From contig JAHBSH010000020.1 of NCBI GenBank assembly GCA_019639215.1, positions 1 to 34,779 on the forward strand: DNA of 34,779 bases. Reading direction: 5' to 3'. This DNA comes from Acidobacteriota bacterium (lineage in GTDB: Bacteria; Acidobacteriota; Blastocatellia; Pyrinomonadales; Pyrinomonadaceae). Both the position numbers and the translations under genes were made by a program. This document shows positions 18,658 through 34,779 of the stretch, in pieces; position 1 is the first letter of the stretch, and every line of letters begins with the position of its first letter. The notes under the pieces were generated by a model. That model had not been told where the DNA came from and did not search any database. It saw only the letters and a list, made by a program, of their open reading frames with translations.

Positions 18658-18682
18658 TCCGATCAGATCTGATCACATTATC

Positions 18683-18713
18683 AAGGGCCGTTCGTGAGGA
18701 CGGCCCTTTCTTT
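18683..18713 (+). terminator. Intrinsic terminator after the META-domain gene
   Basis: The stem AAGGGCCGT/ACGGCCCTT (18683-18691, 18700-18708), extended by a GU and a CG pair to about 11 base pairs, closes a GTGA tetraloop and is followed by TCTTTT. It lies 26 bases past the META gene stop. Confidence 0.85.
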
Positions 18714-18853
18714 TCGCAAAAATCGACCTTGGTGTTCACCCGCTGACTATCTGCAAAAATTTCCCTTCTACATAGAAGTTCGTTTATAATCGCTCGCATC
18801 TTTTTTGAACGAGGCGGTCAGTTATCATTTCTAAAGTTACTTAGAGGGTTGAT

Positions 18854-21406
18854 ATGTACCAGATCACATCCATCATAATGCAGGGCAATAGTATAAAAGG
18901 GGCTTTCGTTTGTGAACGCTTGCCGCATTTCAAAAGACTCGGTCAAACGATCATTCTGTTCATGATCGCAACATTGGTGTCTTTGAATTGTCTGGCGCAG
19001 CTAAGGCCTGTTGGAGATGTAAACGCAATAGTTGAAAAAGGGACAGCACATATTGTTTTTACTACGAGTGGCGGCCCGGTGGTTTCAGTTTCTTTCATGT
19101 CCGCTGATGTCATACGCGTCCGCATAGCTCCATCAGGTAAATTTGAACCTGACCACAGTTATGCCTTCGCTCCTGATCATAGGTCAACCAGGATAAATGG
19201 CCGAATCAATGAACGTCCGAATGAGATCGAACTTGTTTCTTCGGACGGAGTGAGAGTCGTCATCAAAAGACGTCCTTTCCAAATAGAAATATACGATGCC
19301 GACAACAGAGCAGTTCTCAAAGACGATCCGCGACGGCCTGTTCTGTTCGATGCTGAATCCGGTGAGGTGCAGACGACAAAGCTGCGGCAAAGCGAACTTG
19401 AAACTTATTACGGATTTGGAGAAAAGGCATTCTTGGAGATGTCGCGGAACGGAAAACACATTGTAAATTGGAACACCGACACATTCTCCTATCCAGTCGG
19501 AACCGATCCCATATATCAATCGATACCATTTTTTTACGCTCTTTATGACGGTAAGACATACGGACTTTTTCTGAACAACACATATCGCACGGTCTTTGAC
19601 ATGGGCAAAACCTCAACCAGCCGTTACACGTTTGGTGCGGAGGGCGGCGAACTTGACTACTTTGTTTTCGTCGGCGGTCAGGGGCGTTCGCCGCAAAAAG
19701 TGCTTAAGGATTACACCGCCCTTACGGGACGCACACCGCTTCCGCCGATCTGGGCTTTGGGAAATCAGCAGTCCAGATGGTCGTATTTTCCTGAAAAAAG
19801 GGTGAAAGAGATCGCCGCGGGCTACAGAAATAACAAGATTCCGGCTGATGTCATCTATCTTGATATCGATTATATGGATGACTATCGTGTCTTCACTTGG
19901 GACAAGGAGCGTTTTCCTGATCCAAAGAGAATGATCTCAGAGCTTCGTAAGGACGGCTTTCGAACGGTGCTTATCATTGACCCGGGCATAAAAGTTGACC
20001 CCAATTACCATACCTACGCTGAGGGACGCCGATTGGGAATGTTTGTGAAGAATCCGGACGGTTCGGAACTCCAGCGTGATGTCTGGCCCAAGGCATCGGC
20101 ATTTCCTGATTATACCGATCCGAAAGCTCGAGACTGGTTTGGCGAACAGTATAAAATGCACCTCGAAGAAGGCGTGGCCGGGTTTTGGAATGATATGAAT
20201 GAACCCGGAGTCTTCATGACCGCAGAAACCGAAAAGCCGGAGATCTTCCATCATCCCGCAAAGACCTTTCCGTATGACACACCGCATGTCGGAGACGGGT
20301 TAAAGGGCGACCATCGCCGGTATCATAATGTTTACGGGATGTTGATGACGCGGTCGACATTTGAAGGATTGAAAAAGCTCTCGCCGCATACGCGCCCATT
20401 TGTTTTGACCCGTGCAGGTTTTGCAGGGGTTCAGCGATATTCGGCCGTATGGACAGGTGACAATTATGCAAGCTGGGATCACCTCGCGATGACGATACCA
20501 ATGCTTGCTAACATGAGTGTTTCAGGTGTTCCTTTTGTCGGAGCTGATGTCGGCGGCTTTAACGACATGCCCAGCGGCGAGCTTTATGCACGCTGGCTGC
20601 AGGCGGCAGTATTGACACCGTTCTTACGCTCACATTCGGTCGGATGGGTCGGTAATAAGGAGCCATGGGAATACGGTAATGAGTTTACTGAGATAAACCG
20701 GCGTACGGTCGAACTGCGTTACAAAATGCTGCCGTACCTGTACACGCTTTTCAAGAAACATGAAGAAGACGGCTCGCCTCTTATGCGGCCAATGTGGTAC
20801 GAGTTTCCAAACGAGAAAGCTCTTTATCTGAATAACGACCAGTTTATGGTCGGCAGCGATCTGATGGTTGCCCCGGTCGTGAAGGAGGGAATGAGAACAC
20901 GTGGAATCTATCTGCCTGCCGGAGCAGAGTGGATAGATTGGTGGACCGGGGAAAAATATGAAAGCGGAAAGATACATTATCTGCAGACCCCGCTTGATAT
21001 GCTGCCGCTTTTCATTCGCGTCGGAGCGGTCGTGCCAACACAGGATGTCGTTCAGCATACAGGTGAAATGCCGTCATCAAAGATCACTTTGAATATAGCG
21101 GCAGGTATCAAACCCGATCAAACGCGGGTTTCTAAGCTGTATCAGGATGCCGGTGAAGGATATGGCTACAAGTCAGGTGAATGGAGCGAGGTTGTGGTCA
21201 CACATATTGCCGGAAAACTTCTGATCGAACGCAAAGGTAGATACAGCGGCCAGAGTATCGGATCGATAGCCGTTCATGGAGTTGCTGAGAGGCCGAAAAA
21301 CATTCTTGTTGACGGGAAGGTGACAGAATTTAGCTATACAGCCGACAAGAAGCGAGTTGAATTCTCCGTTCCTTCTAATGTAAGAGAGGTGGCGTTGGTA
21401 AGATAA
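18854..21406 (+). CDS. Secreted GH31 family alpha-glycosidase (alpha-glucosidase/alpha-xylosidase-like)
   Basis: An 850-residue retaining alpha-glycosidase. The catalytic nucleophile Asp is about residue 447, in FWNDMNEPGVF, the GH31 signature. The acid/base Asp is about residue 536, in WTGDNYASWDHL. The N-terminal beta-domain ends near YYGFGEKAFLEMSRNGKH, and the motif IPFFYALYDGKTYGLFLNN and LDIDYMDDYRVFTWD also match GH31. An N-terminal hydrophobic segment (LGQTIILFMIATLVSLNCLAQ) after a 30-residue lead suggests export; a later start is possible, but AGAGGG upstream of 18854 supports this ATG. Substrate could be alpha-glucan, isoprimeverose or xyloglucan fragments; the sequence does not decide. 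No matching LacI operator is visible upstream. Confidence 0.92.
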   Translation: MYQITSIIMQGNSIKGAFVCERLPHFKRLGQTIILFMIATLVSLNCLAQLRPVGDVNAIVEKGTAHIVFTTSGGPVVSVSFMSADVIRVRIAPSGKFEPDHSYAFAPDHRSTRINGRINERPNEIELVSSDGVRVVIKRRPFQIEIYDADNRAVLKDDPRRPVLFDAESGEVQTTKLRQSELETYYGFGEKAFLEMSRNGKHIVNWNTDTFSYPVGTDPIYQSIPFFYALYDGKTYGLFLNNTYRTVFDMGKTSTSRYTFGAEGGELDYFVFVGGQGRSPQKVLKDYTALTGRTPLPPIWALGNQQSRWSYFPEKRVKEIAAGYRNNKIPADVIYLDIDYMDDYRVFTWDKERFPDPKRMISELRKDGFRTVLIIDPGIKVDPNYHTYAEGRRLGMFVKNPDGSELQRDVWPKASAFPDYTDPKARDWFGEQYKMHLEEGVAGFWNDMNEPGVFMTAETEKPEIFHHPAKTFPYDTPHVGDGLKGDHRRYHNVYGMLMTRSTFEGLKKLSPHTRPFVLTRAGFAGVQRYSAVWTGDNYASWDHLAMTIPMLANMSVSGVPFVGADVGGFNDMPSGELYARWLQAAVLTPFLRSHSVGWVGNKEPWEYGNEFTEINRRTVELRYKMLPYLYTLFKKHEEDGSPLMRPMWYEFPNEKALYLNNDQFMVGSDLMVAPVVKEGMRTRGIYLPAGAEWIDWWTGEKYESGKIHYLQTPLDMLPLFIRVGAVVPTQDVVQHTGEMPSSKITLNIAAGIKPDQTRVSKLYQDAGEGYGYKSGEWSEVVVTHIAGKLLIERKGRYSGQSIGSIAVHGVAERPKNILVDGKVTEFSYTADKKRVEFSVPSNVREVALVR

Positions 21407-21436
21407 CCTATAGCAGGCGCGGCGAACCCGTGTCTG

Positions 21437-22624
21437 TTATTGGCTTGGTCTTTGGTTTGTTGCAGTTACTATAGACCAATTGCCTTTTTGCATCCTTGAG
21501 ATAATTATGTTGAGAGCCATAAGCGAAAGGCTACAGCCCAGTATCACATAAAATCCTGAACGCAGATCGCCGGAATGTGTTGAAACATAACCCACAAGCC
21601 ATGTAATAAAGGCTCCGCCAAGACTGCTGAGGACGAACAACGGCATTGCCTTTTGCGTTGATCCCGGGCCAAATGTACCTGTAAATCGTGACATGTTGGT
21701 AGGGAATACTACCGAACAGCCAAAGCCAAGGATCGCCGCTCCGAGCAGAAGAGCCGAAAGGGTCTCGGCGTATAGTATAACGCCGGTTCCGACGATCATT
21801 ACGGCAAGAGAAAAGAAGATCACGCTGCTCTCACTGGCGAGACGAAAGATCACAGGACCTAACATCCTGCCGATCACCAGCGTAAGAAAAAACAACGAGG
21901 CCGCAGAGAGCATGAATGTCCCTCCACTATCTACGACCCGGTCTTGATAAGTGGTTATCCAGCCGCCAACACTACTTTCGACCCCGATGTGAATAAAATT
22001 GAAAACCGCCAGCAGCCATGCGAAGGGCATTGTCCATATCGATACCGGTGAAGAGGTTTCCTGGATTTCGACACTTACTTTTTCAACACGTTTGTCGTAA
22101 ACGAGGAAAACTATCATTACCAGCGTCAGGGCCGTTGCCAGTGCGGCCGTTGTAATGAATATGCTCTCAGACGTCTGTGTGATATCGACGAACGGTTTTG
22201 AGAGTATCGCACCGAACCCCCAAAAAAAATTCACGATGCTCAGATTTGACGCTGACCTGGAATGATCCAGTTCGACCACGAACATATTTGTCGTGGGAAT
22301 ATTCAGTCCAATGCCGAAACCGTAGATCGATATCGCTGCAACACAGCTGAACCAGGAACCAAGATTCAGCATGAGAGTGCCGCAGATCATCAGAACACAG
22401 CTGGCTGCCAAAATTTTCGGATAGCCGTAGCAGTTTGACAATGAACTGTAACAAAATGCTCCGAGCAGGGAACCGCCGAATTGACAGATAAAGAGAGAGC
22501 CTGCTTCCTGATCGGTAAGCGAAAGTTGCCGTGACAACACGGGCAGGATCTGTCCTAACAAAACCGTAAGGATACCGGTTACGAGAAAGCCGACCCGTAA
22601 AAGAAGCATCAGGCGAGTATTCAT
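21437..22624 (-). CDS. Major facilitator superfamily sugar transporter (FucP-like)
   Basis: A 395-residue protein with about 12 hydrophobic helices and a hydrophilic central loop near residues 180-200 (VYDKRVEKVSVEIQETSS). The N-terminal half contains FGIGLNIPTTNMFVVELDHSRSASNLSIVNFFWGFGA, typical of FucP-type sugar symporters of Bacteroidota and Acidobacteriota. Substrate is unknown; the locus suggests a glucan-derived mono- or oligosaccharide. It is the last gene of the operon lacI, SGNH hydrolase, MFS, three bases after the hydrolase stop. It is convergent with the GH31 gene with a 30-base gap and no obvious terminator. Confidence 0.88.
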   Translation of the reverse strand: MNTRLMLLLRVGFLVTGILTVLLGQILPVLSRQLSLTDQEAGSLFICQFGGSLLGAFCYSSLSNCYGYPKILAASCVLMICGTLMLNLGSWFSCVAAISIYGFGIGLNIPTTNMFVVELDHSRSASNLSIVNFFWGFGAILSKPFVDITQTSESIFITTAALATALTLVMIVFLVYDKRVEKVSVEIQETSSPVSIWTMPFAWLLAVFNFIHIGVESSVGGWITTYQDRVVDSGGTFMLSAASLFFLTLVIGRMLGPVIFRLASESSVIFFSLAVMIVGTGVILYAETLSALLLGAAILGFGCSVVFPTNMSRFTGTFGPGSTQKAMPLFVLSSLGGAFITWLVGYVSTHSGDLRSGFYVILGCSLSLMALNIIISRMQKGNWSIVTATNQRPSQ

Positions 22625-22627
22625 TCT

Positions 22628-23296
22628 TTAGCGTAAATGAGGAGCAAGGATCTCTCGCCAGAGGTCGTAGCCTTTCCTGCTCAGATGAAGGCCGTCAGAG
22701 ATGAACAGATCCGCGGGAGGCTTTCCGTCAGTTCCAAGCATTGCCGTGGAAATATCCACAAACGTGACCTTTTTATGTTTTGCCGCCTCCGTCTTGATAA
22801 GTGAGTTTGTCTTCTCCATATTTGGCCATATTGCCCATCGCAAAATGCTCGGCTTCATTGAAATATAAATGACCGGTGTTCCGGCCAGGTGTTTATCCCT
22901 GATGGCAAGGAAAGCCTGAAAATCAGCAAGAACATCTTCGGGCGAACGACCTGCCTCAATGTCGTTCTCACCAGAATAGATAACGATCTTTTTGGGTTTG
23001 TATGGAATGACTATCTTTGGCGCGAAGAATACAAGATCGTTGAGCTGAGAGCCACCAAAGCCTCGATTTATCACATTCAATTTCGGAAAATCTGATCGCA
23101 GAGAAGTCCACATGCGTATGCTGGAACTTCCCGTAAAAAGAACGGCATTGGAAGGAGGTGTTTGTCGCAGATCTACGTCGAGAAAAGCGGCGATATCCTT
23201 CTCCCATATTTTCTCGCGGGTGTACGGTTCTGACTGAGCATCAACAGCCAAGAAGAACGTGAATATCAAAAAGAATGTTAAAAATATTCGAATCAT
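22628..23296 (-). CDS. Secreted SGNH/GDSL-family hydrolase (carbohydrate esterase-like)
   Basis: A 222-residue exported esterase of the SGNH fold. The signal peptide is MIRIFLTFFLIFTFFLAVDA, cleaved near QSE. Block I with the catalytic Ser is LFTGSSSIRMW; block II contains the Gly in NRGFGGSQLND; block III has the Asn in YSGENDIEAG; block V has the catalytic Asp/His in ISDGLHLSRKGYD. All four blocks are present. Many relatives deacetylate polysaccharides or sugars, which fits its operon with a LacI regulator and an MFS transporter, but the substrate is unproven. Its ATG overlaps the lacI stop by four bases (ATGA), indicating translational coupling. Confidence 0.88.
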   Translation of the reverse strand: MIRIFLTFFLIFTFFLAVDAQSEPYTREKIWEKDIAAFLDVDLRQTPPSNAVLFTGSSSIRMWTSLRSDFPKLNVINRGFGGSQLNDLVFFAPKIVIPYKPKKIVIYSGENDIEAGRSPEDVLADFQAFLAIRDKHLAGTPVIYISMKPSILRWAIWPNMEKTNSLIKTEAAKHKKVTFVDISTAMLGTDGKPPADLFISDGLHLSRKGYDLWREILAPHLR

Positions 23297-24375
23297 AATT
23301 CCGCGACTCTCGCAGTCGATTGACGAACGATTATTGTTGGTTCGACGCTTAGCGTTGTCGGCCCGTCGGGGCGTTTTCCGTTTGCCAGCTTATCAAGCAG
23401 TGTGGTTGCGGCGAGACTGCCCATCTCAAAAAGCGGTTGTTTGATCGTGGTTAGAGCTGGATTGTGGAAAGCCGCCGAATAAATATCATCAAAACCGAGG
23501 ACAGAGACATCTGCCGGAACACGAAGACCCATTTCATCCAACGCCCTAATGGCTCCTATTGCTGATATATCATTGAAAGCAAAAAGAGCAGTAAACCTTT
23601 CTCCGGTTGCCAAAAGTGCTTTTGTGGCGGAATAGCCGACCTCCGATGACGGAGAATCGCCTTGAAGCTGAATGGTGAGTTTTGAGTCAAATGGAATCCC
23701 ACGCTTTTGCGCAGCCTCATTTATCGTTTCCCACCGGATGATCGTGTCGGAACTGAATTCCTGGCCCTTGATCGCGGCTATACGGCGATGCCCAAGATTG
23801 TAGAGGTGTCCTATGCCGAGTTCGGCTGCATGACGATGATTCAGAACGACATTTGTCACACCATCGATCTCTTGATGGCCTGAGACATTAACCACAGGCA
23901 AAGCAGGATCGAAACGAATAGGCGTATCAACCGCGATAATTCCTTCGACCTGTCGTTCCATTAGGACGCGCGGGAGTTTTTCAAGCAGATCTTCACGATG
24001 CAGGTGGCTGGCAGTCAAATAAAAATATTCTGCAGTTGAAAGGGCAGATTCGACACCGTTCAGCACCATTGCAGAATAACCGTCGCTAAGTTCCGGGACC
24101 ATTACCCCGATAGTGTTCGTTTTCTGTACCCTTAATGAGCGTGCAAGATAATTTGGCCGGTAATTCATTTCCCGGGCGGCTCTGAAAATGCGTTCTTTGG
24201 TTTCCTTTTTTATCGAAACCGCTTTTGGCGAATCATTCAGAACAAGTGAAAGAGTAGTGGGTGAAAGCCCAACGTATTCGGCGAGCTCCCGGAGGCTGAT
24301 CGGGTCACCATTCTTGGATGGAGAAGGTTTCCCGGTCGTCGGTTTTATTTTTGGTTTTTTTGGTTGCCGGGGCAT
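23293..24375 (-). CDS. LacI family transcriptional regulator
   Basis: A 360-residue DNA-binding repressor. I take ATG 24375; the frame extends to 24573, but those 66 residues are unlike LacI proteins and overlap a likely regulatory region. After a Lys/Pro-rich stretch, the helix-turn-helix is SLRELAEYVGLSPTTLSLVLND, with the hinge-like NYRPNYLARSLR. The periplasmic-binding-protein-like core follows: IGVMVPELSDGY, FTALFAFNDISAIGAIRALDE, VSVLGFDD and FHNPALTTIKQP. Ligand is unknown, presumably a sugar. It is the first gene of the minus-strand operon with the SGNH hydrolase and MFS genes. A tandem operator-like site is seen on the other side of the divergent region, at the TonB-receptor promoter. 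Confidence 0.93.
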   Translation of the reverse strand: MPRQPKKPKIKPTTGKPSPSKNGDPISLRELAEYVGLSPTTLSLVLNDSPKAVSIKKETKERIFRAAREMNYRPNYLARSLRVQKTNTIGVMVPELSDGYSAMVLNGVESALSTAEYFYLTASHLHREDLLEKLPRVLMERQVEGIIAVDTPIRFDPALPVVNVSGHQEIDGVTNVVLNHRHAAELGIGHLYNLGHRRIAAIKGQEFSSDTIIRWETINEAAQKRGIPFDSKLTIQLQGDSPSSEVGYSATKALLATGERFTALFAFNDISAIGAIRALDEMGLRVPADVSVLGFDDIYSAAFHNPALTTIKQPLFEMGSLAATTLLDKLANGKRPDGPTTLSVEPTIIVRQSTARVAEL

Positions 24376-24438
24376 TTTTTGAGATATTGGCACAGAAAAA
24401 GACGCTTTATCAAGCGGCGACCCTATGGATCGAAAATA

Positions 24439-24455
24439 AATTGGTATAACCAATT
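24439..24455. promoter_or_regulatory. Palindrome AATTGGT-ATA-ACCAATT, candidate GntR/FadR-type operator
   Basis: Perfect seven-base arms around a three-base centre, in the lacI/TonB-receptor divergent gap, about 64 bases upstream of the lacI ATG and about 100 bases upstream of the TonB-receptor promoter. The form TTGGT-N3-ACCAA is like the operators of FadR-subfamily GntR regulators such as LldR and UxuR/ExuR. No GntR gene is in the window. Confidence 0.4.
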
Positions 24456-24555
24456 GCCTTCCATGGTCGATATTAGTAATAGGGAATCCCGATATTTGTT
24501 GATGAAAGTACAAATTGCAGGTGGACAAAAACTTCTGCTGAGCACACTTTTTTTC

Positions 24556-24586
24556 TTGACAATCAAAAAACATAGGTGATATAAAT
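24556..24586 (+). promoter_or_regulatory. Strong sigma70-type promoter of the Oar-like TonB receptor
   Basis: TTGACA (24556-24561) is followed after 18 bases by TATAAAT (24580-24586). Transcription should start near 24592, immediately before the tandem operator and about 155 bases upstream of the receptor ATG. Confidence 0.75.
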
Positions 24587-24592
24587 GCAAAA

Positions 24593-24619
24593 CTAAAACG
24601 ATTTAGTAAAACGATTTAG
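24593..24619 (+). promoter_or_regulatory. Tandem LacI-type operator overlapping the transcription start
   Basis: CTAAAACGATTTAG (24593-24606) is a near-palindrome with a central CG, the standard LacI-family layout. The 13-base word TAAAACGATTTAG then repeats exactly without a spacer (24594-24606, 24607-24619). The site sits just downstream of the promoter's -10 box, where a repressor would block initiation. The divergent lacI gene is the natural candidate to bind it. Confidence 0.6.
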
Positions 24620-24745
24620 GTTTCGTTTCCGTCGATCTGAAGATGCTTTCTCTGAGCTCTCCTGTAGCTTGGGTGACTCGGATCATAACTGGATAAACAG
24701 CATTTTGTTCCGTCACGTCAGACTTTATAAATTTTGGAGGAATCT

Positions 24746-27700
24746 ATGCGGCGAATGGTTTTTGGTCTTTTCAATGGCATCGGCGTTATAACCATGGTTC
24801 TCGCTCTTGCCGTGGTCGCCACTGCCCAATTCAGGGCGGGTGTTCAAGGGGTTGTTACGGATTCAAACGGTGCGACCGTTCCGGGTGCTACGGTAACACT
24901 TACAAATAAGAGTACTAATCAGACACAAAAGACCGTGACCAACAACGACGGTTTTTATAGATTTTCCGCTCTTCCGCCAAGCATTTATTCTGTCGCTGTT
25001 GATAAGGACGGATTTAGCAAGACGGTGGTTGATGATGTAAATGTCGAAGCCGAGGCGATAAAAGGACAGAACATCACGCTCCAGACAGGTTCGATCGACG
25101 AGACGGTGACAGTTGAGGCTGATACGGTTGCTCTTCAGACCGAAGATGCCAATATTCGTAAGACAATAACGACCAAAGAGATCCTGCAGCTACCGCAGAT
25201 CGGACGTGACCCGTATGAGCTTATTCGCCTGACGCCGGGTATTGTAGGGTTGGGTGCTCGCGACGGTGCCGGAGGATCGGTCGGGTTGCCGAATACATCA
25301 GGAAGGGCCGGTTCCAATACCGGTATCTTTCAAACGGAGAGTATGCAGCCTATATCGGCCAACGGTCAACGCGGTAGCTCGAACAATTATCAGATCGACG
25401 GAGTTAGTGTAAACAGCCAGAATTGGGGCGGTTCTGCCATCATCACACCTTCGCAGGAGATAGTTAAGGAAGTTCAGGTGCTTACGACAAGTTATTCCGC
25501 CGAAGACGGAAGAAACAGCGGAGCCCAGATCAAGACGATCACTCAGAGCGGTACCAATGATTGGCATGGCAGCCTGTTCTATAAATACAACGATCCCTCG
25601 CTGAACGCATTTAACAAAATGCCTACATCTATCGCCGGAGTTGGTGTTGAAGGGCCGAGAAAGGTTCTGCGAAAGTTTCGTTCTTTCGGAGGAAGTTTTG
25701 GCGGACAGCTTCCATTCCTGAATTTTGGCGAAGGCGGCCCTTTTATAAGAAGCGGTCGCGACAAGAGCTGGTTCTTTTTTGCATACGAGGGGACAAGGGA
25801 TAAAACAAACGATCCTTACTACTCATGGGTAGAAACATCAGAATTTCGTAACGCTATTGCTTCGCAGCGGGCAGGAACAGTTACGGCGGCGATAGTTGGA
25901 GCTCCGGGAGGAGATCCGCGTATTTTGGAAGTGATCACACCACGCCTTACCGCGGCTAATCGCTGGGCATGCGGTCCTGATGATTCAGTACTCTTGAATA
26001 ACTTTACGGCAAATCTCGTGGGAAATGGGATCGATTTCGGGTCGCTGACCGGAACATACGGGAATTACGCTGCCAACAATACAGCCGGTAACGGACTCGA
26101 TGGTATTCCCGACGTTCAGTGCGGAAGGTTTGATAACGAACGTACAACAAAAGGTGATCAATTTTTTGGCCGTGTGGATTTTCAATTGACCGATGCGGCA
26201 AGGCTTGCGATAACAGCCACGGTGACGCCGTTCAATGCTGGCGGAATGGACAGCGCAGCCCAGAGCCGTCCTCAGGCAGATTTCTTCTCAGACAGAACAA
26301 ATTTTGCAACGGCTGTGATCTACAACCACACTTTTACTCCGACATTTCTTATGGAATCGCGGCTTAGCTATAGCGGATGGGGTTATGATGAAATGGCATC
26401 CAATCCTCACGCTGACTTTGGCATTCCCCGTATCGAAGTTGAACAGATATGGGGAGGCAGGTTGCGCTGGGGCATTGCCCAACCTGGAATGTTCAAAGAC
26501 AGGCAGTATGACTTTAAGACGTCTTTCACTAACATTTCGGGAAATCATGTGTTCAAGTTTGGAATGAGCTATAACAAAGACTCTAACGAGGGCGGAAATA
26601 TGAGCCGGGCAAGGCCGCTATTCTCATTTGCCAGACCGTGGAACTTTGCTAACGGTACACCTGTATTCGAGTCTGTCGGAGCAAATCCATCCGGCAAGCC
26701 GACACCAGATGACACGATATTTCATTCTACTGGCTTAGCATTTTTCGTTCAGGATGACTGGAAGATGCTGCCTAATTTTACACTTAACCTTGGATTGCGT
26801 TGGGAATACCTCGGCCCAATAGTTGCGGATCGAAACGTAATAAGCAATCTGGTCTTGGATGCCAACGGCGGAACGGCAGGAGCGACACTCGTTGTAAATG
26901 ACACGCTGACGAAACAGGATTGGAACAACTTTGGCCCCCAGATCGGGTTTGCTTGGTCGCCGGAAAGATTTGGGAACAAGCTGGTTATCAGAGGCGGCAC
27001 CGGTCTTGCATATGACCGATTACCTAACGCACTGCTTAACAATGCTCGCAGAAACCCTGGCGGTCCAACACAGCTTTACAACATATGCTGTCCGGGAAAT
27101 AGTTCTGATCCGAATTTTCTTGCGATGAACTACAGCCTCAGTGGCGATGGTTCAATAACGGGATTCCCTGTACACGGACAACTTCCTGCCGTTGGCAGGC
27201 CCGAGATCTATGGGTCGCCTTGGGAAGTCCCCAACGCTTCCGTCTGGCGTTATTCCTTGGAGGCACAGTATGAACTTCCATGGAGAACAGTGGCAACGGT
27301 CGGTTATTCGGGAACCAGGGGCAAAAATTTCGTCCGCATAGAACCCAAACATATAACCGGCGGCTCAAATTCCGGTGCATCTGCTTTCGGGGCAGTTTAC
27401 TACGCAGTGCCGGATGTGGTGACAAATTATAATGCGATGATCTCTTCGGTCAGAACGAGGTTTTTCAAAGGCCTTTCCTTTATCGCAAACTACACATTTG
27501 GTAAAAGCCTCGATACCGTGTCATGGGAAGCGCCGTGTGCGTGTACTAACCAGACATTTCCTGTTGATCAGGATGAGGAATATGGAAGGTCAGACTTTGA
27601 CACTCGCCACAATATGAACTTTGCTGCGGTTTGGGATATTCCATTCTTCTCGAATCAAAGAACCTGGCAGGGCAAGATATTCGGCGGTTGGCAGCTGGGC

Positions 27701-28252
27701 ACGATCGTAACCTATAACACCGGGTATCCGTGGACGGCTCGTACAGCTGGCTGTTTGCAAGGGGCAACAACAGGAACCTCGAACTTCTGCGATCCGCGGC
27801 CAACTTATTATAATGGTACCGCACCTCGTGCTAATACGAATGAGAACTTCCTGAATGGTGGCCTGTTCCCCGGCACCTTTCTTCCGGGTGTTCCATGCAA
27901 TAATCTCGGGACCGCACCTGACGGGTGTAATACGGCTTTCTTTACGCCGATCACCACGACCGATCCATTTACCCAGCCGCCGGGCGTCGGACGAAACACG
28001 TTCTTTGGCCCGAAGTATTTCTCGACGGATATTTCCATCGGAAAGCGTTTCGGTTTGCCGAACACGGGCTTCTGGGGTGAAGGAGCCGGTCTCGATCTGA
28101 AATTCAACTTCTTCAACGTGTTCAATCAGCTGAATTTCGCACCGTTCGGAGCGAACAGCAATCCGACCCACGTTGACCGTGCCCAATTTGCTTTGCCGAC
28201 CAACGGGTTGTCAGGCAGAGTTGGTGAATTTCAGGCCAGGCTGAGCTTCTAA
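24746..28252 (+). CDS. Oar-like TonB-dependent receptor
   Basis: A 1168-residue outer-membrane transporter or receptor. The start is ATG 24746 with GGAGG (24736-24740) five bases upstream; the frame is open from a TTG at 24734 but that lies inside the Shine-Dalgarno region. The signal segment is MVLALAVVATA. Residues about 28-115 are a CarboxypepD_reg beta-sandwich (GVVTDSNGATVPGATVTLTN, DGFYRFSALPPSIYSVAV). A plug-like domain follows to about 290 (LPQIGRDPYELIRLTPGIV, SNNYQIDGVSVN). The remainder is a beta-barrel ending RVGEFQARLSF, with the C-terminal Phe used for barrel insertion. Gene order and the operator suggest sugar uptake. No SusD partner is present, consistent with this Acidobacteriota receptor type. 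Confidence 0.92.
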   Translation: MRRMVFGLFNGIGVITMVLALAVVATAQFRAGVQGVVTDSNGATVPGATVTLTNKSTNQTQKTVTNNDGFYRFSALPPSIYSVAVDKDGFSKTVVDDVNVEAEAIKGQNITLQTGSIDETVTVEADTVALQTEDANIRKTITTKEILQLPQIGRDPYELIRLTPGIVGLGARDGAGGSVGLPNTSGRAGSNTGIFQTESMQPISANGQRGSSNNYQIDGVSVNSQNWGGSAIITPSQEIVKEVQVLTTSYSAEDGRNSGAQIKTITQSGTNDWHGSLFYKYNDPSLNAFNKMPTSIAGVGVEGPRKVLRKFRSFGGSFGGQLPFLNFGEGGPFIRSGRDKSWFFFAYEGTRDKTNDPYYSWVETSEFRNAIASQRAGTVTAAIVGAPGGDPRILEVITPRLTAANRWACGPDDSVLLNNFTANLVGNGIDFGSLTGTYGNYAANNTAGNGLDGIPDVQCGRFDNERTTKGDQFFGRVDFQLTDAARLAITATVTPFNAGGMDSAAQSRPQADFFSDRTNFATAVIYNHTFTPTFLMESRLSYSGWGYDEMASNPHADFGIPRIEVEQIWGGRLRWGIAQPGMFKDRQYDFKTSFTNISGNHVFKFGMSYNKDSNEGGNMSRARPLFSFARPWNFANGTPVFESVGANPSGKPTPDDTIFHSTGLAFFVQDDWKMLPNFTLNLGLRWEYLGPIVADRNVISNLVLDANGGTAGATLVVNDTLTKQDWNNFGPQIGFAWSPERFGNKLVIRGGTGLAYDRLPNALLNNARRNPGGPTQLYNICCPGNSSDPNFLAMNYSLSGDGSITGFPVHGQLPAVGRPEIYGSPWEVPNASVWRYSLEAQYELPWRTVATVGYSGTRGKNFVRIEPKHITGGSNSGASAFGAVYYAVPDVVTNYNAMISSVRTRFFKGLSFIANYTFGKSLDTVSWEAPCACTNQTFPVDQDEEYGRSDFDTRHNMNFAAVWDIPFFSNQRTWQGKIFGGWQLGTIVTYNTGYPWTARTAGCLQGATTGTSNFCDPRPTYYNGTAPRANTNENFLNGGLFPGTFLPGVPCNNLGTAPDGCNTAFFTPITTTDPFTQPPGVGRNTFFGPKYFSTDISIGKRFGLPNTGFWGEGAGLDLKFNFFNVFNQLNFAPFGANSNPTHVDRAQFALPTNGLSGRVGEFQARLSF

Positions 28253-28270
28253 AGCTGGGCCGAATTTAAC

Positions 28271-28412
28271 AAAAGAGGGAGTCTGAAGAATAGTTCTTTT
28301 GTGTTATGTCCTATATTTTATGGTCAATTTTCTGCTAAGACAGTAAATGCCGTAGATAAACAGACGATCACAGAAACACAGTTTTACTCTGGTTTTTCAG
28401 ACGACCTCTTTT
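28271..28412. repeat. Long-spaced inverted repeat after the TonB receptor gene
   Basis: AAAAGAGGGAGTCTGAA (28271-28287) and TTCAGACGACCTCTTTT (28396-28412) are complementary at 15 of 17 bases, with 108 bases between the arms. The gap 28253-28512 otherwise has no gene. It could be a remnant of a small mobile element or a long terminator-like structure; a small internal AAGAA-TAG-TTCTT hairpin is also present. Confidence 0.45.
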
Positions 28413-28512
28413 CGGTAAGAGTTTAACTTTTAACTAAATAGGTATCACGTTCTCGAACTCATCCTTCTGCCTAGTTGCCAAACTGATATGAAAAGGCAGA
28501 GACTGATGCCAT

Positions 28513-29409
28513 ATGAGATCATCCGAAAACATTTTTCGTTCGATAGCAGTGGCCTTTGTTCTTTCGACGACCGTGTTCCTTGCGACAGCAGAGATCAGTG
28601 CCCAGCCCTTCAGGGTAATGACGTTTAACATTAGATATGATGAACCACGTGACGGTGTTAATGCGTGGCCTAATCGCAAGCAAAAGGTCGCTGACGTTAT
28701 CAAAAAATACGAAGCGGATATCGTTGGAGTTCAGGAGGCTCTTGAACATCAGTTAAAAGATCTTGAAACATTGTTGCCGGAAATGGATTGGTGCGGTGTC
28801 GGCCGTACAGACGGTACAAATACCGGCGAATATTCTGCGATATTTTATAACCGGCAGCGGTTTGAGCTGATCAAGACGGAAACCTTTTGGCTGTCAGAAA
28901 CACCGGACAAGGCAGGCAGCAAAGGCTGGGACGCGGCTCTTCCACGCATCGTAACGTGGGCAAAATTCAAAGATCGAAAAACAGGAAAGGAATTCTTTCA
29001 CTTTAATACGCATTTTGACCATATGGGTGAAAATGCTCGTGTCAACAGTTCCCGGTTGCTTCTCGAAAAGGTTTCGTCGATAGCCAAGAAAAAGAGAGCT
29101 GTTGTCACCGGAGACTTTAATGCCAATTATTCGACGGATGTTTACAAGACGATCATTGAGCCTGCGAAAAACCGTAAACCTATTCTATTTGATGCAAGAC
29201 GCAGTAGCGAGACCGAATATGTAGGAGTGTCTTCAACATTCTCCGCTTTCAAAGAGCTTGTTCCAGAGAATTGGATAGATCATATCTTTGTAAACAAGGA
29301 CGTTCGTGTTCTGCGATTCTTTGCCGCTGATGACAGGCCCGGTGGACTTTGGCCATCGGATCATTTACCTGTAGTGGCAGAGATCACTTTTGAAAAAAAG
29401 AAAAGGTAA
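28513..29409 (+). CDS. Secreted endonuclease/exonuclease/phosphatase (EEP) family protein
   Basis: A 298-residue exported metal-dependent phosphoesterase. The signal segment is VAFVLSTTVFLATAEISA, cleaved near QPF. All EEP blocks are visible: RVMTFNIRYDE (Asn), VGVQEAL (metal Glu), FNTHFDHMG (His), VTGDFNANYS (Asp/Asn), WIDHIFVN and PSDHLPVVAEI (catalytic His). Secreted members of this type are common beside glycoside hydrolases in Bacteroidota and Acidobacteriota; their substrates are usually unknown. It lies between the TonB receptor and the GH3 fusion gene on the same strand, 104 bases before the latter. Confidence 0.9.
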   Translation: MRSSENIFRSIAVAFVLSTTVFLATAEISAQPFRVMTFNIRYDEPRDGVNAWPNRKQKVADVIKKYEADIVGVQEALEHQLKDLETLLPEMDWCGVGRTDGTNTGEYSAIFYNRQRFELIKTETFWLSETPDKAGSKGWDAALPRIVTWAKFKDRKTGKEFFHFNTHFDHMGENARVNSSRLLLEKVSSIAKKKRAVVTGDFNANYSTDVYKTIIEPAKNRKPILFDARRSSETEYVGVSSTFSAFKELVPENWIDHIFVNKDVRVLRFFAADDRPGGLWPSDHLPVVAEITFEKKKR

Positions 29410-29513
29410 AGCCGAAAAGGTTTTTAGAAGGGAAGTGTTGATCTTTACGGCCTGACAAAGCTTAAAGCTGATCGATCTATTTTGCTTGATCCGATTCCGC
29501 AACAAAATCTGAC

Positions 29514-32500
29514 ATGATCAATAAACGAAATCTTCTTGCCTCATTAACATTGTGCGCCATCCTTATTGCCTCCGTCGTCTCTGTGTCTGCACAGCAGAGT
29601 CAGGCAGGACGGAATGCCGAGATCGAGCGGAGGATCGATGCACTTCTCGCTCAAATGACGCTCGCTGAAAAGTTGGGGCAGCTGCAGCAGCTTGATGGCG
29701 AAGCAAACGGTAAGTATCGTCCCGAACACCTAGAAATGGCTAGGAAAGGTTTACTCGGTTCTACGTTGAATGTCCGTGGTGCAAGGATGACGAACGAACT
29801 CCAAAGAGCAGCCCTCGAATCCAGATTGAAAATACCGATATTGCTTGGGTTCGATGTCATTCACGGATATCGGACGATCTTTCCTGTGCCTCTTGGCGAA
29901 GCCGCAAGCTGGGATCTTGCTCTTATGGAGCAAACAGCCGCCATTGCTGCCGCCGAGGCCCGGGCTGCTGGCGTACATTGGACATTTGCCCCAATGGTGG
30001 ACATTTCTCGCGATGCCCGCTGGGGCCGCATTATCGAAGGATCGGGCGAAGACACATATTTTGGTTCTAGGGTAGCTTATGCAAGGGTTCGCGGTTTTCA
30101 AGGAGATGATTACAGCCAAAAGGATCGTGTGATGGCGACCGCCAAGCATTGGGTCGGTTACGGTGCCGCTGAGGGCGGACGCGATTACAATACGACAGAT
30201 CTTTCTGAAAGAGCATTGCGCGAGGTTTATTTTCCGCCTTTTAGAGCGGCTATTGACGCCGGCGTAGGTTCTTTCATGACAAGTTTTAATGATATTGACG
30301 GATCACCGGCAACCGGAAATCCGTGGGTCATGAAAGATGTGCTTCGCGATGAATGGAAATTTGACGGACTTGTGGTCAGCGATTACACGGCAGTGCTGGA
30401 ATTGCAAATGCATGGTCTTGCGGGAAGCGAAAGCGATGCTGCAATGTACGCTCTGAATGCGGGTACGGATATGGAGATGGTCAGCCGTCTCTATAATAAA
30501 TACGGCGAAGATCTGGTCAGATCAGGCAAGGTCTCAATGCAAACCATAGATCAGGCTGTGCGTCATGTTTTGCGTGTAAAGTTCCGCCTCGGTCTGTTTG
30601 ACGACCCTTTCGCAAGTGAGGAACGGGAAAAAGCAGAGGTTTTCAAACAGGCAAATCGCGATGTTGCAAGGATCGCAGCTGAAAGATCTTTTGTTCTTTT
30701 AAAGAACGAGGGCAATGCTCTGCCTCTAAAAAAAGATGCAAAGAATATAGCTGTCATCGGTGCACTTGCAAACAGCAAAATAGACATGAACGGCAACTGG
30801 GCCGGTGATGGACAGCCCGAAGACCCGATAACCGTTCTTGAAGCCCTCAAGACCAAATACCCGACCGCTTCCGTTTCATTCGAACCGGGGTGCGACCCTG
30901 CATGTGAGAACACCGAAGGTTTTGAAAAGGCCTTAGATGCGGCGAAAAAAGCTGATGTCGCGATCCTTGTTGTCGGCGAAGCCGCATGGATGTCCGGTGA
31001 GGCGTCGTCTCGTTCAAAGATCGGGCTTCCCGGCAAACAGCTTGATCTTGTAAAGGCTATTCATGATTCTGGTAAGCCATATGTGGTCGTTTTGATGACG
31101 GGCCGTCCGCTTGAGCTTAACTGGTTAAAGGAAAATTCTCCAGCCATTCTTATCACCTGGCTTCCTGGAACTGAAGCCGGCAATGCGGTTGTGGATACGT
31201 TGTTCGGCGATGTCAATCCGGGCGGAAAGCTGCCTGCATCTTTCCCAAGATCGGTCGGTCAGCTTCCGCTTTACTACAATCACAAGCGAACCGGACGCCC
31301 GTTGTTGGAAGCGAACAAATATACCTCGAAATATCTTGACGTCGAGAATTCTCCGCTTTTTCCTTTTGGTTACGGTTTAAGTTATACCCGGTTCCAACTG
31401 GAGAACCTAAGGCTTGATAAACTCAAAATAAATCCGAACGAGAGCGTCAAGGTCAGCATTGATGTTCATAATCGCGGCAAGGTAAAAGGTGATGAGACCG
31501 TGCAGCTCTACATTCACGATATTGCGGCTTCGGTCACGCGTCCGGAAAAAGAGCTTCGCGGTTTCGAACGTGTTACGGTTGAACCGGGCCAGATGAAGAC
31601 GGTCGAGTTCACACTCGGGGCAAAAGAGCTAAGCTTTCTTGGACGTGACCTTAAACCCGTGTTGGAACCCGGCGAATTCTTGGTAATGGTCGGAACGAGC
31701 AGCGAGAGTGGACGTCAAAGCGTCTTCGAGGTCGTCGATCCAAACAAACCACCGGTTGGTATCAAAGAGGCGATTGATCCTGCTCCTACGGCTCCGGTCC
31801 CGACGGCTCGCATTTCGGCTGAGGATGATGCCTTTCTTGAAGACCTTTCTAAAAGGACATTCCAATATTTCTGGGAGCGAACGAATCCGAAGACCGGTTT
31901 AACACTTGACCGGGCTCCGGCTGATGGAAGTCCGCGTGGACGGGAGCATCGAAGCTATAACGTTGCGAGCATTGCCGCATCCGGCTTTGCCCTTAGCGGC
32001 TATTGTATTGCCGCCGACCGCGGTTGGGTAACGCGTGATGCAGCGAAAGAACGTACCCGCAACACGCTGGATTTCTTTGCCAACAAGATGTTTCACATGA
32101 ACGGCTGGTTCTATCATTTTGTCGATAGCGAAACCGGTGAACGTAAATGGCAGAGCGAAATATCGTCAATAGACACCGCGCTCCTTTTGGGCGGAGTGCT
32201 CACGGTTAAGCAGTGTTTTTCTGATGATAAACAGATCGTCGAACTAGCAGACAAGATATACCGTCGCGTCGATTTCAAATGGATGCAGGCCGGCAATCAG
32301 TATCTGCTTAGCCACGGTTATCGTCAGGAGCAAGGTGGCTTTATAAAGAGCACTTGGGGACGGTACAGTGAAGAAGCAATATTGTATCTGCTCGCTATCG
32401 GTTCCCCGACTCATCCGATATCACCAAATTCATGGTATGCATTTGAACGTCCGTGGAATGAATACGGCGGTTATCGCTACATTGGGTCTGTTTCGCCGCT

Positions 32501-33038
32501 TTTCATTCACCAGTTCTCACATGCTTGGGTCGATCTTCGTGCCAGACGCGAACGCATCCCGTCCTTTATCAACTATTTTGATAATTCGGTCAAAGCGACG
32601 AGGGCACAGCACAAATTCTTTGCTGAAGAATTAAGTAAGGAATTTCCAACATACGGGCCAGAGATGTGGGGATTGACATCATCTGATAGCGAACACGGAT
32701 ACACTGCATGGGGCGGTCCGCCACGACCTGACCGTATTGACGGTACTGTTGTGCCGTGTGCTGCGGCCGGGTCGCTGATGTTCGCACCGGACATAACGCT
32801 GCCGACCTTAAAACGAATGAAGGCCGAATACGGCGACAAGGTATATCAGAAATATGGATTTGTCGATGCCTTTAATCCACATACAGGATGGGTGAACGGG
32901 GATGTCATCGGCATTGATCTTGGTATAACTTTGCTTTCTGCAGAAAATCTCCGTTCCGGAAAGAACTGGTATTGGTTCATGCAAAACGATGAGATACGCC
33001 GTGGCCTAAAACTCGCTAGACTCGACATTCAACCCTAG
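29514..33038 (+). CDS. GH3 beta-glucosidase fused to a GH144/glucoamylase-like (PF10091) module
   Basis: A 1174-residue secreted two-enzyme fusion. The signal peptide is MINKRNLLASLTLCAILIASV, cleaved near SAQ. Residues about 30-740 are a full GH3 beta-glucosidase: KHWVGYGAAEGGRDYN, nucleophile Asp about residue 290 in GLVVSDYTAVLE, the (alpha/beta)6 sandwich with TWLPGTEAGNAVVDTLFGDVNPGGKLP, and a fibronectin-III-like domain ending near residue 735. A Pro-rich linker (about 742-770) leads to residues 770-1174, an (alpha/alpha)6-type module: LSKRTFQYFWERTNPKTGL, WQSEISSIDTALLLGGVL, GWGGP-like AWGGPPRPDRIDGTVVP, GWVNGDVIGIDLGITLLSAENLR. This matches PF10091, which includes GH144 endo-beta-1,2-glucanases. 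The pair could cleave beta-1,2-glucan to sophorose and then glucose. The polymer is inferred. Confidence 0.9.
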   Translation: MINKRNLLASLTLCAILIASVVSVSAQQSQAGRNAEIERRIDALLAQMTLAEKLGQLQQLDGEANGKYRPEHLEMARKGLLGSTLNVRGARMTNELQRAALESRLKIPILLGFDVIHGYRTIFPVPLGEAASWDLALMEQTAAIAAAEARAAGVHWTFAPMVDISRDARWGRIIEGSGEDTYFGSRVAYARVRGFQGDDYSQKDRVMATAKHWVGYGAAEGGRDYNTTDLSERALREVYFPPFRAAIDAGVGSFMTSFNDIDGSPATGNPWVMKDVLRDEWKFDGLVVSDYTAVLELQMHGLAGSESDAAMYALNAGTDMEMVSRLYNKYGEDLVRSGKVSMQTIDQAVRHVLRVKFRLGLFDDPFASEEREKAEVFKQANRDVARIAAERSFVLLKNEGNALPLKKDAKNIAVIGALANSKIDMNGNWAGDGQPEDPITVLEALKTKYPTASVSFEPGCDPACENTEGFEKALDAAKKADVAILVVGEAAWMSGEASSRSKIGLPGKQLDLVKAIHDSGKPYVVVLMTGRPLELNWLKENSPAILITWLPGTEAGNAVVDTLFGDVNPGGKLPASFPRSVGQLPLYYNHKRTGRPLLEANKYTSKYLDVENSPLFPFGYGLSYTRFQLENLRLDKLKINPNESVKVSIDVHNRGKVKGDETVQLYIHDIAASVTRPEKELRGFERVTVEPGQMKTVEFTLGAKELSFLGRDLKPVLEPGEFLVMVGTSSESGRQSVFEVVDPNKPPVGIKEAIDPAPTAPVPTARISAEDDAFLEDLSKRTFQYFWERTNPKTGLTLDRAPADGSPRGREHRSYNVASIAASGFALSGYCIAADRGWVTRDAAKERTRNTLDFFANKMFHMNGWFYHFVDSETGERKWQSEISSIDTALLLGGVLTVKQCFSDDKQIVELADKIYRRVDFKWMQAGNQYLLSHGYRQEQGGFIKSTWGRYSEEAILYLLAIGSPTHPISPNSWYAFERPWNEYGGYRYIGSVSPLFIHQFSHAWVDLRARRERIPSFINYFDNSVKATRAQHKFFAEELSKEFPTYGPEMWGLTSSDSEHGYTAWGGPPRPDRIDGTVVPCAAAGSLMFAPDITLPTLKRMKAEYGDKVYQKYGFVDAFNPHTGWVNGDVIGIDLGITLLSAENLRSGKNWYWFMQNDEIRRGLKLARLDIQP

Positions 33039-33073
33039 GCTGGAAGGTAAACAGTATTGTCTGCTATTCAATA

Positions 33074-33115
33074 AAAAAATACCGGCTCACTTATAAAAAT
33101 GAACCGGTATTTTTT
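33074..33115. terminator. Bidirectional intrinsic terminator after the GH3 fusion gene
   Basis: The stem AAAAAATACCGGCTCA/TGAACCGGTATTTTTT (33074-33089, 33100-33115) has a single A-C mispair on the plus strand (G-U on the minus strand) and T-tracts on both sides. It lies between the convergent stops of the GH3 fusion and the TonB-receptor fragment. Confidence 0.88.
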
Positions 33116-33133
33116 CTAGCTTACTCTAAATAA

Positions 33134-34678
33134 TCAGAACAAGAGTTTTAAGGCGAACTGGAACGAACGCGGTCCGCCGACTTGGTAGAGCGAGTTCAAT
33201 CCGCCGAGCTGAGCATTCTGGGTATTGGTCGCCTTACCAAAAAGTGAAGAACCCACTGACAGGCGATTTTCCACCGCTCCAAAATTTGCACGATTGAAAA
33301 TATTAAAGGATTCCGCACGGAACTGTAACCTTATATTTTCGGTTATCGGAAAGTTCCTTCTTATCGCGAGGTCTGCTTGAAATGATCCGAAACCCCGGGC
33401 TACGTTGCGGCCAAAATTCCCTTGTATCAGAGCGTTGTTTCCGTCACGTGCAACTTCAAATGCGTCAAAATTTATGCGTTTGCCGCCTGGAGCACTTGGG
33501 TCGTCAACATACAATGACCCGCCGATAAAGTTTGGCTGAAAATCAACCGACAAATATGGCACAGCCGGGTCGACCCCGCTTGCCCCGATTATGTTCACCG
33601 GCAACGCAGATCGGGCAGAGATCCTGCCGTCAATGGCCCAATTTTTTACCAGTGCCGCAATGACCGCATTTTCCGGCGAGAAAGGAATGTCATAGGACAG
33701 AGCGGCCTGGAAATTATGCCTGATATCAAAATCAGAATTTCCGCGTGTCAGCTGCCTGACGGTAAAATTGCTCGTTGCGTTATCAATAGAATGTGACCAT
33801 GTGTACGAAGCGTTTGCCTGAAGCCCTTGCGTTAATCTTCGCTGGTATTGAGCCTGCATGGCATGATAGCTAGAACGGCCTTCATTGGTCGTCAAAACTA
33901 TCGCGGCATTCGCGCTGAAATTCAAGTTGCCCAAAGCTCTCGGCAAGTATGAGCGGTCAACCAGCAATCTTTGCCCCGAAGCCCCGATGTAGCTGACCGA
34001 GATCGACTGTGAACTTCCCAGAGATTGTTCTACTGCACCGTTCCATTGCACCGTGAAGGGAAGTTTCAGGAAAGGGTCGTCGGTGAGGATCGTTTCTGTG
34101 TAAGGTGTCGTTACGCTTGGAGCAGGAATGCCGTCAACCTGAGCCTGTGTAAGCGGGAAATTTGCGTTTACAAATCTTGTGGTTATCCTAAACCCTGCAC
34201 GTCCGTAGCCGTCCGATGCCTGTGTATTTCCGAGGTCATAATATATCCCGCTGCCTGCGCGTATCACCGTCTCCCAACCGGGTTCATCTCTGAGAACATA
34301 TGCAAGGCCGATCCTTGGAGCGAAGTTATTCCATGTCGTTTTCCACAGGGGCCTGTCTCTGTCCATTACGAGGCGGGTAGTTGTAAGGTCAGTTACTTGA
34401 TCGATATTGTAGGGCGGCTGGCCTGCTGCATCAGTCGGGGCCGGGTTAACCTCATATCTCAGACCGAGTGAGATGCTGAGCCTTCTGCTAGCCCGCCATT
34501 CATCCTGTGCAAAAAGAGATAAATTCTTCAATCTCCGGCGCTTTACCTCGACGTTTTGCGTAGTTCTGTAAACGCGAAATATTGATTGCATACCGTTCGA
34601 ATGCGTTATTGAAAATATTTTTGAGTTCGGCACCTGAGTAGAAAAAGTAAATTTGTCGCTCACAATAAATATCCACAA
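33134..34678 (-). pseudogene. 5'-truncated Oar-like TonB-dependent receptor (C-terminal barrel only)
   Basis: The frame encodes the C-terminal beta-barrel of a second Oar-like receptor, about 470 residues from the conserved LSLFAQDEWRASRRLSISLGLRYEVNPAP to the terminal FQFALKLLF. The signal peptide, CarboxypepD_reg domain, plug and first part of the barrel are missing; full proteins of this type have about 1000 residues or more. Family-like sequence begins near 34540. The first 46 or so residues of the open frame (from 34678) are unlike any receptor, and the same DNA codes for an AbiEi-like protein in another frame. The ORF is intact, but without plug and export signal it cannot be a functional receptor. 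The ORF's barrel shows no stops, so the loss may be recent. Confidence 0.8.
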
Positions 34679-34779
34679 GCAGCTTTTCGAGATGAGGAAT
34701 ATTTATTGTTTGATTCTTGTCCTTTTTTTTCTGTATCGGGGATCGACTGATCAAGGGCTTCATGATAACCGGCTCTTCT
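34500..34779 (-). CDS. 3' end of an AbiEi-antitoxin-like (DUF6577-like) gene, running off the window
   Basis: The minus-strand frame is open from 34779 to TGA 34502-34500 and reads through the ATG at 34763 without a stop upstream, so the gene extends beyond the window. The visible part, KPLISRSPIQ, INIPHLEKLLVDIYCERQIYFF, YSGAELKNIFNNAFERYAINISRLQNYAKRRG, has the pattern I know from C-terminal regions of AbiEi-type antitoxins of type IV systems found mainly in Bacteroidota and allied phyla. The helix-turn-helix half would lie outside. No AbiEii nucleotidyltransferase follows; the receptor fragment begins directly, in an overlapping frame. The final residues (EEFISFCTG) may come from the receptor side of a junction. 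Family call moderately sure. Confidence 0.55.
   Translation of the reverse strand, partial: EEPVIMKPLISRSPIQKKKDKNQTINIPHLEKLLVDIYCERQIYFFYSGAELKNIFNNAFERYAINISRLQNYAKRRGKAPEIEEFISFCTG

Follow-up and report, generated by a model that had tools for sequence, protein, structure and literature searches.

The end of the contig analysed here joins two unrelated genes, the 3' part of an abiEi-type antitoxin gene and the last codons of a TonB-receptor-like gene, and we consider it probable that this contig end is chimeric, a reading that we prefer to a genuine recent recombination mediated by microhomology. The stretch under study (the window, 34,779 bases) is the entire contig C49 of the assembly G000, which comprises 2,910,571 bases in 135 contigs and is 92.24% complete and 0.8% contaminated; position 34779 is thus a contig end. 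The break lies about 258 bases from it, and a calculation by hand gave a chance of 1.5% (2 x 264/34779) that a uniformly placed break falls within 264 bases of a contig end. As the initial annotation had reported, two minus-strand frames of the open reading frame list overlap at 34500-34678: the first is open at the contig end and terminates at 34500, and the second has a mechanical TTG start at 34678 and runs to 33134. This overlap is trivial, since two genes have been joined in different frames. The features at this end of the contig are the following.

33134-34526, minus strand: last 463 codons of a TonB-receptor-like (OMP_b-brl_4) gene, by PF25183 and the homologous receptor of the congener G012.
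34516-34779, minus strand: 3' part of an abiEi-type antitoxin gene, the foreign tail, by identity to G012:C12, PADLOC AbiEi and PF20217 DUF6577.
34516-34526, minus strand: overlap of both alignments over 11 bases, with the break somewhere inside; the abiEi identity ends at 34516 and the receptor alignment starts at 34526.
34500-34763, minus strand: mechanical open reading frame holding the antitoxin end, from the open reading frame list and alignment with two full-length relatives.
34527-34678, minus strand: spurious 5' extension of the receptor frame through abiEi, from the open reading frame list and present in 0 of 24 homologues.

The last 480 bases of C49 occur in no other contig of G000, making this end a dead end, and no 25-base words were shared among 40 contig starts of 400 bases (out of the 135 G000 contigs) and both ends of C49. 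The junction was also searched for in viral contigs, where it was absent.

We compared the window with 60 relatives and found matches in 4 genomes, the window's own included. G012, a metagenome-assembled genome of the same genus (Acidobacteria bacterium isolate ACE_ACI6), holds both halves of the junction in two places, and G016 and G056 match only 37-38 bases. Positions 34516-34779 are identical to G012:C12:1830-2093 at 263 of 264 bases (C12, JAHBSK010000002.1, length 505983). Compared to this tail, every reported match of the other 34.5 kb of the window to G012 had an identity of 67-84%, and its main blocks lie in the same order as in G012:C1:537084-560252, with two extra short matches on other contigs. 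Only the tail is near-identical to G012, and to a different contig, so that the two sides of the join differ in their identity to one reference genome. Neither the contig end at 34779 nor the near-identity of the antitoxin piece to another species had been noticed in the initial annotation. Apart from the tail, the rest of abiEi, abiEii, the integrase gene and the first 20 kb of G012:C12 had no match in G000.

The same comparison gave two observations away from the junction. Positions 18662-33137 (14.5 kb) have no DNA match in G012, where their two neighbours lie about 240 bases apart; this segment contains a full-length TonB-type receptor (24734-28252), an endonuclease/exonuclease/phosphatase-family protein (28513-29409) and a 1174-aa fusion of GH3 and a putative glucoamylase (29514-33038). 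In addition, an imperfect palindrome of about 130 bases, with ends like GTCTGAAAAGTC / GACTTTTCAGAC, occurs in at least five places in G000 (C85, C19, C125, C2 and C88; loci L011-L015, around 1501-1650) at 78-84% identity, and one G012 copy lies on C1 (L008:15030-15185) beside transporter genes. The locus of the G012 copy had no Rfam match, and the palindrome may be MITE- or REP-like.

The initial annotation had taken one of the two frames for an AbiEi-like C-terminal region, and profile searches bear this out. The tail matched the PADLOC AbiEi model PDLC02235 (E 1.4e-31, profile 154-235 of 240) and Pfam PF20217, DUF6577 (E 5.4e-30, profile 117-199 of 204), the only Pfam label for this AbiEi-type family; by sequence match, the piece in the window is AbiEi. 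About 88 C-terminal residues are present, cut by the contig end, and the gene is without the last 7 codons of the relative (QELAASI); the final residues of the mechanical frame at 34500-34763, FCTG, come from receptor DNA. In two full-length AbiEi relatives, which share 53% identity, conservation reaches as far as E-F-[IL], immediately ahead of the break, and is slight after it. We searched about 84,980 species genomes, a set from which the window's own genome may be absent, with six exact AbiEi peptides and confirmed one record, G012; with one such genome, this AbiEi variant is not seen as widespread. At the DNA level, abiE matched in 3 of 119 family genomes, namely the window's own, G012 and G071 (68%). 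Relatives of AbiEi were found neither in viral contigs by peptide scan nor in phage or plasmid collections by DNA search. Structural approaches gave little: a single-sequence fold of the relative's AbiEi had a mean pLDDT of 32, a model too poor for use, and phmmer found no relative in the PDB.

At the source locus in G012, abiEi is unbroken (248 aa), matches the PADLOC model with E 7.7e-78 (profile 3-238 of 240) and is followed by abiEii (PF08843). An in-frame stop splits this abiEii (L003:380-1465) into pieces of 241 and 88 residues, both of which match the same AbiEii model. Beside the pair stand genes for a tyrosine integrase (PF00589), an HTH repressor-like protein and an M78 peptidase, and farther out come others that look phage-like by eye; from this gene content the locus may be mobile. 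In G071, a more distant relative, an abiEi frame of 253 codons overlaps a downstream frame of 362 codons by 4 bases, and the 68% DNA match suggests that this open downstream frame is AbiEii; an overlap of 4 bases is also described for abiE of Streptococcus agalactiae (PMC3985639). The gene from which the tail derives thus resembles the AbiE type IV toxin-antitoxin and abortive infection systems presented in that paper (PMC3985639) in matching AbiEi along its whole length and preceding AbiEii. Unlike those systems, the window has the AbiEi end only, and in the near-identical relative the toxin gene is broken. In the window, receptor sequence follows abiEi and no downstream AbiEii (PF08843) was found, nor was there a DNA match to abiEii anywhere in G000.

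The second frame is the C-terminal part of a receptor, in agreement with the initial annotation. It matched PF25183 (E 8.5e-91, profile 350-833 of 838) and includes the C-terminal barrel. This barrel half is orthologous to an intact receptor of 1079 aa in G012, one of the PF25183-type TonB-dependent receptors of Acidobacteriota, which we take to be those called Oar-like. Positions 33138-34526 aligned with G012:C1:558864-560252 at 78% DNA identity (1078 of 1389 bases), and 406 of the 463 residues are identical. Full-length relatives therefore exist in G012 for both partners of the join, the abiE pair with its in-frame stop included. Unlike such receptors, the window protein has no signal peptide or plug half on C49, as had been noted before, and it is missing the first 616 of 1079 residues; the signal peptide and the N-terminal plug half were not found elsewhere in G000 either. 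Homology to receptors begins at 34525/34526 (the N of N-L-S-L-F), which corrects the earlier placement near 34540, and the residues that precede it in the mechanical TTG frame, antitoxin DNA read out of frame, number 51 and not about 46. We aligned 24 receptor homologues, one open frame for each of the loci L026-L048 plus G012, omitting the rows of G000 itself and of the duplicate G012 locus. N-x-S stands in 22 of the 24 where the window, within the 11 bases shared by both alignments, encodes N-L-S, and none carries the N-terminal extension of the window receptor; a homologue with the same N-terminus, which the initial annotation had named as evidence against a join, was thus not among them. 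Compared to its intact homologue, the receptor piece had a dN of 0.081 and a dS of 1.85 (near saturation) and is open over 463 codons. It shows no decay, as for a gene not left to decay.

In G012 the receptor gene lies at least 85 kb from the nearer end of its contig (C1, length 646213), and its upstream neighbours, named by eye, encode an esterase-like protein and an ABC transporter with its binding protein, of iron-siderophore-type look. The search for the missing 5' half that the initial annotation had proposed was negative: with the first half of the receptor and the upstream esterase and transporter genes as queries, DNA hits in G000 fell only in short intergenic or paralogue stretches. 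A paralogue on C47 of G000 was rejected as the lost half, being a different receptor at 43% identity. Two family matches considered as 5'-truncated homologues were rejected as well: in G131:C80 the 5' half is present in another frame, and in G122:C270 the match begins at the contig edge. The former locus (L089) has its two receptor halves in different frames, and the open frame across both contains a stretch of about 40 residues twice, as seen by eye in the open reading frame list, so that it is possibly another assembly fault.

Alignment to full-length homologues, as had been recommended, placed the break within 34516-34526, where the G012 receptor and abiEi share 8 of 11 bases. In random joins, an overlap of at least 11 bases occurred in 1 of 200,000 and of at least 8 bases in 31 of 200,000; a chimera made by blunt ligation would therefore rarely show such an overlap, which argues against blunt ligation more than against chimeras primed by annealing. 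Complementary stretches of 2-21 bases are given for over 70% of chimera junctions from multiple displacement amplification (MDA) in one study (PMC1855051), chimeric reads formed by microhomology mis-annealing during library end repair are documented (PMC8674242), and so are contigs whose ends were chimerically extended during metagenome assembly (PMC7953547). With the terms used, our literature search found no paper on short-overlap joins in SPAdes or on microhomology chimeras at the ends of contigs of metagenome-assembled genomes. The end of C49 resembles the chimeric reads and contig ends that these reports describe (PMC1855051, PMC8674242, PMC7953547) in joining unrelated segments through a short overlap at a contig end without biological homology; the MDA chimeras of the first are, unlike this join, mostly inversions within one molecule (PMC1855051).

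In the reading that we prefer, the join would be a non-homologous one at the edge of a draft, MAG-like contig, arising during library preparation, amplification or assembly rather than inside the cell. Up to the middle of the receptor (34526) the contig would be orthologous to one stretch of the congener; there a 253-base abiEi tail would have been attached through 11 bases (or 8 of 11) that overlap by chance, and the contig ends after it. The receptor gene of the organism would then probably be intact, its 5' half lying among sequences that were left unassembled or unbinned, and the tail would belong to another community member or to its mobile element; we infer that the source organism of the tail was in the same sample. 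No mechanism would call for explanation, since the receptor and the antitoxin gene would lie on different molecules. An artificial origin of the join is suggested by its position at the contig edge, by the species-discordant identity of the tail (263/264 against 67-84% elsewhere), by the absence of anything else of the abiE region from G000, by the rarity of this AbiEi variant (1 in about 84,980 species genomes and 3 of 119 family genomes) and by the receptor piece being free of decay. An assembly chimera had been the initial annotation's own alternative, and it is the better reading on the strength of the contig edge, the discordant identity and the lack of other abiE sequence in G000. Some points count against it. 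Common assemblers work with k-mers much longer than an 11-base overlap, so that either a chimeric molecule or an assembly step tolerant of short overlaps would be needed. The first half of the receptor and its neighbours are absent from G000, itself an incomplete assembly, as a real loss predicts. Finally, real islands may also break contigs, which weakens the argument from the contig edge.

A genuine and very recent rearrangement is possible, and we hold it only tentatively. An abiE module, borne by a prophage or an island, would have been acquired from a congener and recombined illegitimately at the microhomology of 8-11 bases, joining the 3' end of abiEi to the middle of the receptor and removing the first 616 receptor codons together with abiEii. 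The receptor remnant would then be a pseudogene, presumably unable to work as a transporter with 616 residues missing and no signal peptide or plug, and abiEi, short of only 7 weakly conserved residues at its C-terminus, would be left as an orphan antitoxin. Consistent with this reading, the 11-base overlap (8 of 11 with the relative's receptor) would be rare by chance, the single substitution in 264 bases fits a recent transfer, the conservation of AbiEi stops just before the break, the 5' half of the receptor is not in the G000 assembly, and the abiE genes of G012 stand beside integrase, HTH and M78 genes and so may be mobile. The length of the overlap is also that of verified bacterial rearrangements: in a study of Salmonella, microhomology of about 8-12 bases or more is put forward as a mark of true rearrangements as opposed to ligation chimeras (PMC3411829), and the break in C49, like those, falls inside an overlap of 8-11 bases. 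Unlike the rearrangements of that study (PMC3411829), which connect two known sites of one chromosome, the sides of C49 have discordant identity to one congener. A real rearrangement moreover requires two recent steps, a transfer and a second, correctly oriented recombination, and the contig end 258 bases further on must be either a coincidence or a result of it. G000 contains nothing else of the G012 abiE locus (first 20 kb), and viral contigs (peptides) and phage or plasmid collections (DNA) held no related AbiEi. A more specific version, in which a prophage-linked abiE, freshly transferred between congeneric species, recombined into an outer-membrane receptor gene of a siderophore locus and a single event thus introduced a defence gene and eliminated a possible phage receptor, is improbable.

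The initial annotation had favoured a single event that put the antitoxin gene against the receptor gene. The break in the middle of the receptor stands, but a simple deletion between neighbours, in an ancestor with the abiE operon next to the receptor, is very improbable. Both genes have the same orientation where they meet, and the overlap is what a short direct repeat would give; however, G012 has abiE and the receptor on different contigs, the latter at least 85 kb from a contig end and with other genes flanking it, and abiE lies beside this receptor in 0 of 119 family genomes. On the gene order in G012, we rejected this explanation.

A functional arrangement, in which the receptor would have a changed N-terminus or its end would be translated downstream of abiEi, is hardly credible: both frames are open across the junction, but the 51 residues before the receptor are out-of-frame antitoxin code found in 0 of 24 homologues, the receptor part lacks 616 of 1079 residues and the two other partial matches in the family have other causes, so that the join appears, from its sequence, to yield no plausible functional protein.

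Either of the two leading readings is ordinary in kind, and no new family, system or mechanism is shown. A real rearrangement would be a fresh example in which a defence module passed between species of one genus and disrupted a receptor gene. As a chimera, the end of C49 is a caution that gene calls at the edges of draft contigs can fuse unrelated genes: taken at face value, it would point to a pseudogene of a truncated receptor and to an orphan antitoxin, which the organism may lack.
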